Origin: an uncultured Pelagibacteraceae bacterium
Lineage (GTDB): Bacteria > Pseudomonadota > Alphaproteobacteria > Pelagibacterales > Pelagibacteraceae
DNA length: 64,000 nt
Assembly: GCA_902624195.1 (NCBI GenBank)
Contig: CACNWV010000001.1
Location: forward strand, 56,783-120,782
Direction: 5' to 3'
In this document: positions 5,932-43,765 of the stretch, piece by piece
Position numbering within the stretch: position 1 is the first letter of the stretch
How the letters are laid out: the number at the start of each line of letters is the position of its first letter
Notes under the pieces: generated by a model
Told to the model about the DNA's origin: nothing
Database searches by the model: none
What the model saw: the letters and a program-made list of their open reading frames with translations, nothing else
Position numbers and translations under genes: made by a program

Positions 5932-6762
5932 TTAGATTTCAAGTTTAGTATGTTTTATTCCTGAAACTGGACCACTCATAAATATGTTAAGACTTGAATC
6001 TATTTTAATATTTAAACTTCCTTCTTCAAATTTAATATTGATATCATTTTTAGTTAATTTCTTTATTAATGCTGCCACAGCAGTTGCGCAAGCAGCTGTT
6101 CCACATGCTTTTGTTAATCCAGCACCACGTTCCCAAACATTTACTATAATTTTATTTTCATTATCTACTTGAGCAAAAGTAACATTAGTTCTTTCTGGAA
6201 ATAATTCATGATTTTCTATTTTAGGTCCTAATATTTTTAGATCATATTCAAAACAATTTTTGACAAAAAAAATTATATGTGGATTTCCTACATTAAGACT
6301 AAATCCATCAGTAAATTCTTTACCATCAACATTTATAGTTATATTTTTGTGATCTAATTTTTCTTTTAATGGAATTTTATGCCATTCAAATTCAGGCTTT
6401 CCCATTTCTAGCTGAACATCATAGTCCCCAACAATTTTTGCATTTAGTAATCTGTTATTAGTTCTTAATTTAATTTCTTTATTATTTAAATCTTTACTTA
6501 ATAAATAAGCTACACACCTGCTTCCATTTCCACACGCACTTACTTCACCACCATCTGAATTAAAAATAGTTATTGGAAATGTATTATTAATTTCTTTTTC
6601 AATAAATATCATTTGGTCAAATTCGATATTACGGTGAAAAGACTTGAGTTTTCCTAAATGAATTATTTTTTCTTTGGGTATATTTATTGAGTTTTTTCTT
6701 CTATCTATAATAATAAACCTATTACCTAGACCGTCCATTCTAAAAGCATTAATCAAAGGCAT
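5932..6762 (-). CDS. dapF: Diaminopimelate epimerase
   Basis: Motifs NSDGGEVSACGNGSRCVA and ERGAGLTKACGTAACA. Confidence 0.96.
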   Translation of the reverse strand: MPLINAFRMDGLGNRFIIIDRRKNSINIPKEKIIHLGKLKSFHRNIEFDQMIFIEKEINNTFPITIFNSDGGEVSACGNGSRCVAYLLSKDLNNKEIKLRTNNRLLNAKIVGDYDVQLEMGKPEFEWHKIPLKEKLDHKNITINVDGKEFTDGFSLNVGNPHIIFFVKNCFEYDLKILGPKIENHELFPERTNVTFAQVDNENKIIVNVWERGAGLTKACGTAACATAVAALIKKLTKNDINIKFEEGSLNIKIDSSLNIFMSGPVSGIKHTKLEI

Positions 6763-6787
6763 AATAATAGATTAGTATAATTATTCA

Positions 6788-6816
6788 TTGACTTTTAAAA
6801 CCCCAAATTGTAGTTT
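6788..6816 (+). promoter_or_regulatory. Candidate sigma70 promoter for ffh leader
   Basis: TTGACT (6788-6793), 17-nt spacer, weak -10 TAGTTT (6811-6816). The predicted start site falls at the first helix of the leader RNA. Confidence 0.45.
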
Positions 6817-6818
6817 TC

Positions 6819-6918
6819 ACTAACTTTCCGCAAATACACATGTTTTTGCGGTGCTCTTGAAACAAGAGTGTCGACACTAGTCAGCGAAGGTTCGCCCACT
6901 AGTGCAATAGGTGTTAGT
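6819..6918 (+). ncRNA. Structured cis-regulatory leader RNA upstream of ffh (candidate ffh motif)
   Basis: Three hairpins in series: CCGCAAA/TTTGCGG (6828-6834/6845-6851), CTCTTG-AAA-CAAGAG (6854-6868), CACTAGT..GCGA/TCGC..ACTAGTG (6875-6904). They are enclosed by ACTAAC/GTTAGT (6819-6824/6913-6918). Locally GC-rich for this genome. Confidence 0.8.
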
Positions 6919-6928
6919 TGATATAAAA

Positions 6929-8281
6929 ATGTTTGAAAATTTAACAAATAAATTAGAAAGTATTTTTTCTAAGCTTAAAAATGCTCCTTCATTGACTGAA
7001 GAACAGGTAGACTCTGGTTTAAAAGAGATACGACTAGCTTTATTAGAGGCTGATGTAGCTCTTCCTGTTACCAAAGAATTTTTAGCCAATGTAAAACCGA
7101 AAGCCATTGGTAAAGAAATTATCAAATCAACTTCTGCCGGCCAGATGATTGTTAAAATTGTCTACGATGAACTAGTAAACATTTTAGGCTCTAAAAACGA
7201 GGAACTTAACTTTAAAGCTGTTCCACCGGTTACGCTTTTATTAGTTGGTTTACAAGGTTCAGGTAAAACAACTTCTGCGGCAAAGCTAGCAAAAAATATT
7301 GAGGTAAATTATAAAAAAAAAGTAATGGTAGTCAGTTTAGACGTTTATAGACCAGCCGCACAAGAACAACTTAAATTACTTGCAGAAGCCAATGGTATTC
7401 AATGTTTGCCCATAGTAGAAAAGCAACAACCAATTGACATTACTAAAAGAGCATTAAATGCAGCTAACTTAAATGGCTCAGATGTTATTATATTTGATAC
7501 TGCTGGAAGAACTCAAATAGATTTACCAATGATGTCTGAGATCAAACAAATAAAAGATATTACAAAACCAGCTGAAACAATTTTAGTAGCTGACTCATTA
7601 ACAGGACAAATAGCTGTAAATGTTGCAAAAGAATTTGACACTGCTGTAAATCTTTCTGGAATTATCCTTACAAGAGTTGATGGTGATGCACGAGGTGGTG
7701 CAGCATTAAGTATGAAACATGTGACCGGAAAACCAATTAAATATATCGGAGTTGGAGAAAAAATTACTGATCTTGAGCTTTTCCATCCTGATCGATTAGC
7801 TAATAGAATTTTAGGAATGGGCGATGTAGTAACTTTAGTAGAAAAAGCTCAACAAGATTTAAGCGAAGAAAAAATTAAAGAGACAGAAGATGAATTAAAA
7901 AAGGGAATATTCACTATGGACTCGTATCTTGCTCAAATAAGACAAATGAAAAAGATGGGCGGCATGGAAGGGGTAATGTCTATGTTACCAGGTGTGAATA
8001 AAATGAAAGCAAAAATGGATCAAGCAAATATAGATGAACAAATGCTAGTGGAAAATGAGGCAATTATTTTATCAATGACCAAAAATGAAAGAGAAAATCC
8101 AAAAATTATCAGCGGATCAAGACGTAAAAGAATTTCAAAAGGTGCAGGCGTAGATGTTTCAAAAATTAATAAACTATTAAAACAATTTAAAATGATGTCA
8201 GACATGATGAAAAAAATGTCTCAGGGAAAAAAAATTCCATCTGGAATGATACCAGATGAAATGCTCAATCAACTAAAATGA
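6929..8281 (+). CDS. ffh: Signal recognition particle protein Ffh/SRP54
   Basis: MFENLTNKLESIFSKL, GLQGSGKTTSAAKLAKNI, DVYRPAAQEQLK, DTAGRTQIDLPMM, C-terminal M domain. ATG at 6929 preferred over the GTG at 6911 in the track, which lies in the leader helix. Confidence 0.96.
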   Translation: MFENLTNKLESIFSKLKNAPSLTEEQVDSGLKEIRLALLEADVALPVTKEFLANVKPKAIGKEIIKSTSAGQMIVKIVYDELVNILGSKNEELNFKAVPPVTLLLVGLQGSGKTTSAAKLAKNIEVNYKKKVMVVSLDVYRPAAQEQLKLLAEANGIQCLPIVEKQQPIDITKRALNAANLNGSDVIIFDTAGRTQIDLPMMSEIKQIKDITKPAETILVADSLTGQIAVNVAKEFDTAVNLSGIILTRVDGDARGGAALSMKHVTGKPIKYIGVGEKITDLELFHPDRLANRILGMGDVVTLVEKAQQDLSEEKIKETEDELKKGIFTMDSYLAQIRQMKKMGGMEGVMSMLPGVNKMKAKMDQANIDEQMLVENEAIILSMTKNERENPKIISGSRRKRISKGAGVDVSKINKLLKQFKMMSDMMKKMSQGKKIPSGMIPDEMLNQLK

Positions 8282-8291
8282 AAGGTATAAA

Positions 8292-8828
8292 ATGTTAAAA
8301 ATAAGACTATCAATGGGTGGAGTAAGAAAAAGACCTGTTTATAAAATTGTAATTGCTGATAGCAGATATCCAAGAGACGGAAAATTTATTGAAAAGATTG
8401 GTTCTTACAATCCATTACTTCCAAAAGAAAAAAAGGAAAGAATTAAAATAGAAGCAGAAAGAGTAAAGTATTGGATGAGCAAAGGAGCTCAACCTACAAT
8501 GAGAGTTTCTAGATTATTAGGCGAGGTACAGATAATGCCGATGCCAAAACCTGGAAACAACCCTCAAAAGGCTGTACCAAAAAAAGATAGAAAAAAAACT
8601 GAGGGAGAAAAAAAAGAAGATCCTAAGAAGGATACTCCAGCAGCTGATGGTAAAAAGCCAGACCAAAAAGCAGAAACTAAAAAGGAAGAAGCTAAAAAGG
8701 AGCAACCTAAAGCAGAAACTAAAAAGGAAGAACCTAAAAAGGAGCAACCTAAAGCAGAAACTAAAAAGGAAGAACCTAAAAAGGAGCAACCTAAAGCAGA
8801 AACTAAAAAGGAAGAGAAAAAGGTTTAA
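8292..8828 (+). CDS. rpsP: 30S ribosomal protein S16 with long charged C-terminal extension
   Basis: MLKIRLSMGGVRKRPVYKIVIADSRYPRDGKFIEKIGSYNPLLP is S16; residues after about 85 are low-complexity K/E/Q/P. Confidence 0.95.
   Translation: MLKIRLSMGGVRKRPVYKIVIADSRYPRDGKFIEKIGSYNPLLPKEKKERIKIEAERVKYWMSKGAQPTMRVSRLLGEVQIMPMPKPGNNPQKAVPKKDRKKTEGEKKEDPKKDTPAADGKKPDQKAETKKEEAKKEQPKAETKKEEPKKEQPKAETKKEEPKKEQPKAETKKEEKKV
8670..8820 (+). repeat. 42-bp in-frame tandem repeat (about 3.6 copies) in rpsP
   Basis: GCAGAAACTAAAAAGGAAGAACCTAAAAAGGAGCAACCTAAA begins at 8670, 8712, 8754 and 8796 (partial) with exact 42-bp period; encodes AETKKEEPKKEQPK. Confidence 0.95.
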
Positions 8829-8845: not shown

Positions 8846-9547
8846 ATGTTAGAAGTAAAAATTTTTACTTTATATCCAGAAATGTTTCCAGGCCCTTTAG
8901 ATATTGGAATATTTAAAAAAGCGAGGGAAAATAATATTTGGAATTTAAAAGTTATAAATATTAGGGACTATTCTAAAGATAAATATGGTTCTGTAGATGA
9001 TACTCCTTTTGGCGGTGGAAGTGGAATGCTTTTACGGCCTGATATATTAGCATCTGCTCTTGATGAGAATATAAAGAAAGGTGAGAAAATTATCTACTTA
9101 TCTCCAAGAGGTAAAAAATTTGATCAAAACACAGCCAGATCTTTGAGTAAAAAAAAAAATTTAAATCTTATCTGTGGTCATTTTGAGGGTGTCGACCAAA
9201 GACTTCTGGAAACAAGAAATATAGAAGAATATAGTTTAGGTGATTTTGTTCTATCTGGTGGGGAGCCAGCATCTTTTGTACTCGTTGATGCTCTGATAAG
9301 ATTATTGCCCGGAGTGCTAGGTAATAAGAATTCTACCAAAGAAGAAAGTTTTGAAAATTACCTTTTAGAATATCCGCAATATACTAAACCAAGAGAATGG
9401 GAAGGTAAAAGCCCACCAGAAGTCCTATTTTCAGGTGATCATGCAAAAATAAAAGGGTGGCGTTTATCTCAATCTGAGGCTATAACTCGACGCCAGAGAC
9501 CTGATCTTTGGAAAAAATATTTAGAGAAAAAAAATGAAAAATATTGA
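8846..9547 (+). CDS. trmD: tRNA (guanine-N1)-methyltransferase TrmD
   Basis: [62 protein letters not shown]. Confidence 0.96.
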
Positions 9548-10043
9548 AGACATAAATAAAGCCGCAATAAAAAAAATAGTTGCAAACAAAAAAATTACCA
9601 ATTTTGCCCCTGGGGATACAGTAAAAATCGGTGTCAAAATTATTGAGGGCAAAAGAGAGAGAATTCAATATTTTGAAGGAGTATGTATTGCAAAAAAAAA
9701 TAGAGATATTAACTCATCTTTTACTGTAAGAAAAATTTCTTTTGGTGAGGGTGTTGAAAGAACTTTTGCTTTGTACAGTCCAAATGTCGAGTCTATTAAA
9801 GTTATAAGATCAGGAAAAGTAAGAAGAGCAAAACTTTATTATTTAAGAGATAGAAAAGGAAAATCAGCAAGAATAGCTGAAAAAATTAAGAAAAAAATCG
9901 GAGTTGATGTATCAGTTAAACAAAATGAGTCAGCAGCTAAAAATGTCGGATCTAAAGAAATGGCTCCAGATAAAAATGAAATTAACAAAAAAGATATAAA
10001 GTCCGAAGTGAAGTCTGAAAAGCAAAGTACCGAAATAAAATAA
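9534..10043 (+). CDS. rplS: 50S ribosomal protein L19 with charged C-terminal extension
   Basis: [33 protein letters not shown]...[16 protein letters not shown], then about 45 extra residues. Confidence 0.95.
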
Positions 10044-42631: not shown

Positions 42632-43765
42632 CTAAGAGTTAAATAGTTTAATGGCATAATTCAATTGATTATCTTTTTCAGAGTTAATTTGAAAATCCTC
42701 TCCCTCTTCATCAACAATTATGTCAGGTGTAACGCCTACTTCAGAAATTGATTTACCTGATGGCAGATAATATTTTGAAATAGTCAGTCTCATACCACCA
42801 CCATTATTTAAAGGTATAATTGACTGGACTGACCCTTTACCATAAGAATTAGCACCCAAGATAACTGCTCTTTTGTGATCTTTTAAAGCACCAGCAAATA
42901 TTTCAGACGCAGAGGCAGAGCCATTATTAATTAGAACTACGATAGGTTTTCCTTTTATTTCATCACCTTGTCTCGCAAAAAATTTTCTTGTCTCGGAAAT
43001 TTTTCTACCTTTAGTCGATACTATTTCACCATCGTCTAAAAAAAAATCAGTTATATTTATTGCTTGAGTTAATAATCCTCCGGGATTATTTCTTAAGTCT
43101 AAAACATACCCTTTGATTTTTTCTATTTTCTCAAATTTTCTTATGGATTTTAAAAATTGTTCATCACTATTTTCATTAAACGATTTTAATCTTATGTAAC
43201 CAAGATTTTCTTCTCCAATAATTCTTGAGCTTACCGACTGAACTTGAATAATTTCTCTAATAATTTCGAATTCTAAAGGTTTTTTTATATTTTTTCTTCT
43301 TATAGTTAAGTTAACAGGAGATCCAACTGGGCCTCTCATTAATTTGACAGCTTCTAAAAGAGATTTTCCTTGAACTTGCTCTTTACCAATTTTTACTATG
43401 TAATCTCCTGACTTAATACCAGCTTTTGCAGCAGGTGTATCATCAATTGGCGAGATAACTTTTACTACACCGGCTTCCATTCCAATTTCAATTCCCAAAC
43501 CTCCAAACTCACCCCGCGTATCTGTTTGCATTTCTTTAAAAAGTTCTGGGCTCATATAAGCTGAATAGGGGTCTAGAGATTGTAGAACACCATTTATTGC
43601 AGCCTCTATCATTTCGGCTTGATCTACATCGTCGACATATTCTTTTTTAACATTCTCAAGCACATCACCAAATAAATCAATTTTTTCGTAAAGATCATTT
43701 TTTGAGTAAGCAGTTGATGAAAAAAAATTCAGTGCAAAAAAAAGTATTAACAAAAAATTCTTCAT
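42632..43765 (-). CDS. ctpA: C-terminal processing peptidase, S41 family
   Basis: Signal peptide, PDZ domain (GLGIEIGMEAGVVKVISPIDDTPAAKAGIKSGD), GSASASEIFAGALKDHKRAVILGANSYGKGSVQ. Confidence 0.93.
   Translation of the reverse strand: MKNFLLILFFALNFFSSTAYSKNDLYEKIDLFGDVLENVKKEYVDDVDQAEMIEAAINGVLQSLDPYSAYMSPELFKEMQTDTRGEFGGLGIEIGMEAGVVKVISPIDDTPAAKAGIKSGDYIVKIGKEQVQGKSLLEAVKLMRGPVGSPVNLTIRRKNIKKPLEFEIIREIIQVQSVSSRIIGEENLGYIRLKSFNENSDEQFLKSIRKFEKIEKIKGYVLDLRNNPGGLLTQAINITDFFLDDGEIVSTKGRKISETRKFFARQGDEIKGKPIVVLINNGSASASEIFAGALKDHKRAVILGANSYGKGSVQSIIPLNNGGGMRLTISKYYLPSGKSISEVGVTPDIIVDEEGEDFQINSEKDNQLNYAIKLFNS

Follow-up and report, generated by a model that had tools for sequence, protein, structure and literature searches.

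The hairpin motif named after ffh in Alphaproteobacteria belongs, on the evidence gathered here, to the rpsP operon independently of the signal recognition particle (SRP); that assignment is new, as are the larger RNA architecture around the hairpin and the exact invariant within it. The window, which is the whole stretch of DNA analysed, comprises 64,000 nucleotides from an uncultured Pelagibacteraceae bacterium and carries the element in the intergenic stretch 6763-6928, flanked by the divergent dapF and by ffh. The gene order is leader, ffh, rpsP, trmD, rplS, leuC, leuD, with short gaps (Table 1). We propose that the element is a structured 5' leader of an ffh-rpsP-(rimM)-trmD-rplS operon controlled by a ribosomal component, most probably free S16, a reading that we regard as a strong possibility short of probable.

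Table 1. Leader elements and operon genes in the window, numbered from its first nucleotide.
Feature	Position	Strand	Evidence
Putative -35 element, TTGACT	6788-6793	+	Positional conservation of TTGAC
Putative -10 element, TAGTTT, 17-nt spacer from the -35 element	6811-6816	+	Positional conservation; transcription start putative
Hairpin P2 (CCGCAAA / TTTGCGG), beyond the Rfam model	6828-6851	+	Pairing in SAR11; recovered in other Alphaproteobacteria by model R1
Hairpin P3 (CTCTTG / CAAGAG); Rfam model takes in the 3' strand only, as unpaired flank	6854-6868	+	Covariation in SAR11
Conserved single-stranded linker TGTCGA before P4	6869-6874	+	TCGA near-invariant in SAR11; linker counts across the class
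Hairpin P4, the RF01793 hairpin, internal loop CA/CC	6875-6904	+	RF01793 match 6860-6912; covariation
Conserved 3' tail (here CAATAGGTGTTAGT; SAR11 consensus CGATANNTGYTGG)	6905-6918	+	Position-wise conservation
ffh (SRP protein), first operon gene in the window	6929-8281	+	ORF MFENLTNKLESIF...
rpsP (ribosomal protein S16), constant partner of the leader and proposed main target	8292-8828	+	ORF; PF00886
trmD and rplS (L19), remaining operon core	8846-10043	+	ORFs

The initial annotation took the element for a member of the motif that Meyer et al. (2009) described upstream of the SRP protein gene in Pelagibacter, and this identification holds: RF01793 (the 'ffh' motif) matches the third hairpin and its flanks with 42.5 bits (E 1.1e-4) against a gathering score of 35 bits, and the paper agrees. 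The window element is therefore a member of a known family, and it has the bulged hairpin, the near-invariant bulge cytosines, the covarying stem and the position upstream of ffh; the distance from the end of P4 to the ffh ATG is 24 nt, and a position before ffh is not universal across the family. Meyer et al. reported that a single bulged hairpin precedes ffh in SAR11, Rhodobacterales, Sphingomonadales and Rhizobiales, described its function as unknown, and detected it as a transcript in metatranscriptomes (PMC2704228); transcript detection is also found in PMC7717549. RF01793 is present in 267 of the 297 genomes of the order, covering all 11 genera, and in none of 14 control genomes. The other 30 genomes of the order gave no match (for example G094, G191, G210 and G008), and some of these are more than 90% complete. 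Elsewhere in the window, RF02800 (Rp_sR47, 'Rickettsia sRNA47') matched 42784-43096 on the + strand with a score barely over its cut-off; this match lies antisense inside a ctpA-like protease gene (42632-43765, minus strand) and probably reflects coding-gene conservation, not an sRNA.

Three successive hairpins, as initially annotated, are present at 6828-6904 (pairs 6828-6834/6845-6851, 6854-6859/6863-6868, and 6875-6881/6898-6904 with 6884-6887/6892-6895). For the segment 6811-6928 the folding energy is -36.8 kcal/mol (z = -4.2), a value that none of 200 shuffles equalled, and the leader is indeed richer in G+C than its surroundings, with 49% in 6824-6905 against 30.5% window-wide. The complement strand of 6811-6928 folds equally well or better, so that folding energy alone cannot assign the strand; the substitution pattern of P4 does, since in the class alignment its non-Watson-Crick cells, read on the ffh strand, are G.U or U.G only and none is unpaired. 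The leader thus lies on the ffh strand. In 59 SAR11 leaders, 93.7% of the P2 cells, 91.7% of the P3 cells and 100% of the P4 cells are paired. In 51 distinct SAR11 leaders aligned by plain MAFFT, with no structural fitting, P2 had 93% paired cells and two-sided changes at three of its seven pairs, and P3 had 91% paired cells and two-sided changes at all six; the covariation score of this alignment was 0.273, against 0.142 in shuffles and at most 0.123 on sliding. The three hairpins are real and under selection.

The comparison was extended with R1, a 95-position model trained on SAR11 only. R1 finds the window, which is part of its own training data, at 102 bits; of 90 loci picked from other Alphaproteobacteria for carrying RF01793, most align with R1 over positions 1-95. 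Compensatory changes were seen at 22 of 24 pairs in this class alignment, which is fitted to R1 and hence biased toward it; within P4, two-sided changes occur at 9 of 11 pairs, and 100% of the cells are paired. In a comparison free of model fitting, 85 non-SAR11 leaders gave a mean folding z of -1.07 against shuffles for the 58 nt preceding P4, compared with -0.27 for a control segment further upstream (Mann-Whitney p = 6e-5), a modest effect. P2 and P3 are firm in SAR11, and because this folding effect is modest we describe them as likely present, in looser form, across the class.

The initial annotation also closed the three hairpins with an outer helix, ACTAAC (6819-6824) with GTTAGT (6913-6918), and the GTTAGT strand does end 10 nt from the ATG. 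The helix can be drawn in the window, yet only 58.7% of its cells are paired across the 59 SAR11 leaders. Native strands gave no gain in stability over swapped partners across SAR11 (p = 0.43), with a weak signal within the window's own genus (p = 0.013). The third argument comes from promoter geometry. In the 59 SAR11 leaders TTGAC precedes P2 by 38-41 nt (one clipped row retains GAC only), and it is the best -35 element in 79 of the 85 other alphaproteobacterial leaders; a spacer of 16-17 nt to a TA[G/A]TTT-like -10 element places the putative start of the RNA only a few nt from P2. For the window this would mean a start at about 6822-6824, which would leave most of ACTAAC untranscribed. A generic promoter scan of this region of the window did not call the TTGACT/TAGTTT site. 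On these three grounds the outer helix (P1) was rejected; of the covariation that had been proposed as a check on the helices, SAR11 homologs supply it for P2, P3 and P4 but not for the closing pair, whose 5' strand sits at the putative transcription start.

One mismatch in P4 is invariant. In its two-by-two internal loop, CA/CC, the outer C.C mismatch occurs in 51 of 51 SAR11 leaders and in 88 of 89 sense-strand matches across the class; six cases of G.G at this position are antisense matches. The inner position is mostly A.C and elsewhere C-G, U-A, G-C, G.U or A.A. Both in SAR11 and across the class the tail is conserved at a constant distance from P4, and both tail and linker are kept as single strands. 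By eye, the linker AUCG could pair with the tail CGAU in some sequences, but a G to A change in the tail goes uncompensated, and we rejected this pairing. Non-SAR11 tails are U-rich at positions 3-7, which would suit a transcription attenuator with P4 as a conditional intrinsic terminator. We consider this very improbable, given that no terminator-like site, with a G+C-rich hairpin followed by a U run, was found at 6700-7000 in the window, and that about 75% of SAR11 tails have A at positions 3 and 5.

The spacing from P4 to the start codon ranges from about 16 to more than 100 nt among lineages, and this bears on a role without any ligand, in which the hairpins would guard the 5' end of the mRNA from decay, keep ribosome entry open or yield a stable processed small RNA. 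Hairpins at the 5' terminus can stabilise mRNAs, and both the variable spacing and the position of P2 close to the putative transcript start are consistent with such a role. A simple stabiliser, however, needs neither an invariant C.C mismatch nor near-invariant upper-stem pairs nor conserved single-stranded flanks, and we judge a ligand-free role unlikely.

We next considered which genes accompany the motif, using 80 genomes of other Alphaproteobacteria chosen only for its presence. S16 (PF00886) is encoded downstream of the motif in 79 of the 80 and Ffh (TIGR00959) occurs in 74; ffh directly follows the motif in nearly all lineages. The one motif genome that lacks both S16 and a full Ffh has an intact motif followed by an ffh that breaks off after 137 residues (L287, G487:C222:19000-25700), probably a mis-assembly, and the other five genomes without Ffh all belong to one family, the PS1/OCS116 group described below. 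Only rpsP occurs in all interpretable cases. Of 54 named motif loci whose flanks are complete, 2 lack ffh, 2 lack rimM, 4 lack trmD and 9 lack rplS; because rpsP served as the bait for retrieving these loci, its presence there is by construction and 79 of 80 is the unbiased figure.

These counts also bear on the idea that the ligand is a different operon product (L19, RimM or TrmD), acting through this leader to repress the operon as a whole. The genes form a unit, and rplS, rimM and trmD follow in most genomes. Against this, rplS falls outside the 6-kb flank in 9 of the 54 loci, trmD in 4 and rimM in 2, and the window holds no rimM ORF between rpsP and trmD, though control could still be exerted in trans. 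We think it not very likely that one of these three is the ligand. The S16 protein encoded in the window carries a long, repetitive, Lys/Glu-rich C-terminal extension with KKEEPKKEQPKAET repeats; at one PS1-clade locus (L174) the extension differs, being rich in Ala, Pro and Glu.

The family in which the motif occurs apart from Ffh is the PS1 clade, or OCS116 cluster (for example AG-390-A19, AG-349-L06, AH-321-D15 and AG-343-O05). We sampled 18 of its genomes at 55 to 97% completeness (G335, G440, G520, G587, G648 and G678-G690; loci L174-L178, L191-L204 and L205-L209). None of the 18 has a GTPase with an SRP54 domain (Ffh or FtsY) above cut-off, against 14 of 14 controls, and none has an SRP RNA, while YidC is found in 15 of the 18, including all 6 that are at least 90% complete. 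At these levels of completeness, chance absence of the SRP from all 18 is not credible, and the whole marine family appears to live without a signal recognition particle. The motif is kept in 14 of the 18; at the loci examined it lies between the divergent dapF and rpsP, directly before rpsP, with 28-33 nt from the end of the RF01793 match to rpsP. At L174, the gene after dapF and a MiaB/MtaB-like ORF is not ftsY. Across the 14 genomes, A-U/G-C and C-G/U-A exchanges, with intermediates of G.U type, leave the P4 stem paired, and the C.C mismatch is kept, which argues that the element is still selected where Ffh, FtsY and SRP RNA are all absent. The relatives Parvibaculum and Rhodobiaceae carry the motif before ffh, so that loss of ffh in the PS1/OCS116 family would be the simpler history. 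The SRP is usually described as universal; a non-exhaustive search of the literature returned suppressor work in E. coli but no report of a naturally SRP-less bacterial clade. The absence of the SRP from a marine family is notable in itself.

These genomes contradict the initial suggestion that translation of ffh is controlled by binding of Ffh or SRP RNA to the leader, an arrangement that might otherwise be ancestral, with the PS1-clade element re-purposed or left behind. The suggestion draws on ffh being the first gene after the motif in nearly all lineages and on a GUCAG in the 5' strand of P4 in SAR11 that, by eye, is common to the symmetric-loop region of SRP RNA. The U of that GUCAG is not conserved outside SAR11, however, and the helix-8 symmetric loop recognised by Ffh is not shared, the P4 loop being different. 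R1 gave no match to the genome's own SRP RNA (L086, 1501-1595) and only chance-level matches elsewhere, and mimicry of SRP RNA was rejected; Meyer et al. likewise saw no likeness to the Ffh-binding part of 4.5S RNA (PMC2704228). The motif is not restricted to Ffh-bearing genomes, and its retention before rpsP without an SRP makes autoregulation by Ffh or SRP RNA unlikely as its conserved function. Even as an ancestral role we find it decidedly improbable.

We return to S16. In the mechanism that we propose, the RNA would start at or just before P2, and P2, P3 and P4 would form ahead of the first start codon, with conserved single strands flanking P4. The operon would respond to the level of a ribosomal component, the putative ligand being free bS16 (S16): S16 unengaged with 16S rRNA would bind P4 at the invariant C.C mismatch and its flanks and so lower operon expression. 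Where P4 lies close to the start codon, as in the window, the complex could block ribosome binding; at longer spacings it would need to act through RNA stability or transcription instead. Given the range of spacings, blocking of the ribosome site cannot by itself explain control in every lineage, and an occluded Shine-Dalgarno sequence common to all lineages was not found.

The operon includes ribosomal-protein genes, and its 5' leader contains a conserved RNA structure; ribosomal-protein operons are commonly under autogenous leader control. S16 is favoured as ligand because of this precedent, because the product of the gene always found downstream is an RNA-binding protein of the ribosome, and because the leader is conserved in the manner of a protein-binding site, with its invariant mismatch, near-invariant upper-stem pairs and flanks. 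Several points weaken the S16 model. S16 is not a primary rRNA-binding protein, unlike most known autoregulators, and no rRNA mimicry was seen: the SAR11-trained R1 found nothing convincing in the 16S and 23S rRNA of E. coli rrnB, the one rRNA set searched (best E 0.6). A further point against it is that retention next to rpsP within a single family counts as one evolutionary event. The fuller statement, that the 'ffh motif' is the autogenous S16 leader of Alphaproteobacteria, sensing free S16 and controlling an rpsP operon that holds ffh in most lineages, is one that we put forward tentatively, as possible.

A motif named in 2009 after ffh does not, on present evidence, need that gene. Its reassignment to the rpsP operon yields a testable list of ligands, with S16 first, for rpsP-rimM-trmD-rplS, an operon for which, according to a 2024 review, no regulatory information exists (PMC10931766). 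If the S16 reading is true, no control system has been described earlier for that operon, and this one would be the first. Under the reassignment, one leader would also tie the supply of the SRP protein to that of ribosomes in most motif-bearing Alphaproteobacteria.

Among known RNAs, the bacterial small SRP RNA (RF00169) has a functional link to Ffh, whereas the leader's link is one of gene context in most lineages; the leader model does not match the SRP RNA of this genome, which is encoded by a gene of its own. The leaders of the S15, L1, L10 and L20 operons are likewise conserved, structured 5' leaders of ribosomal-protein operons, and the proposed model would have the present leader work in the same way; it differs in that no rRNA mimicry was found in the E. 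coli rRNA searched and its ligand is putative. The closest relative is RF01793 itself, to which the third hairpin with its CA/CC loop and flanks scores as a member at the same place upstream of ffh. The Rfam family and Meyer et al. model a single bulged hairpin, whereas the leader described here has two more conserved hairpins upstream, and the invariant part of the bulge is now narrowed to one C.C mismatch. RF01793 was named for ffh, but in the PS1/OCS116 family it stands before rpsP in genomes without ffh.
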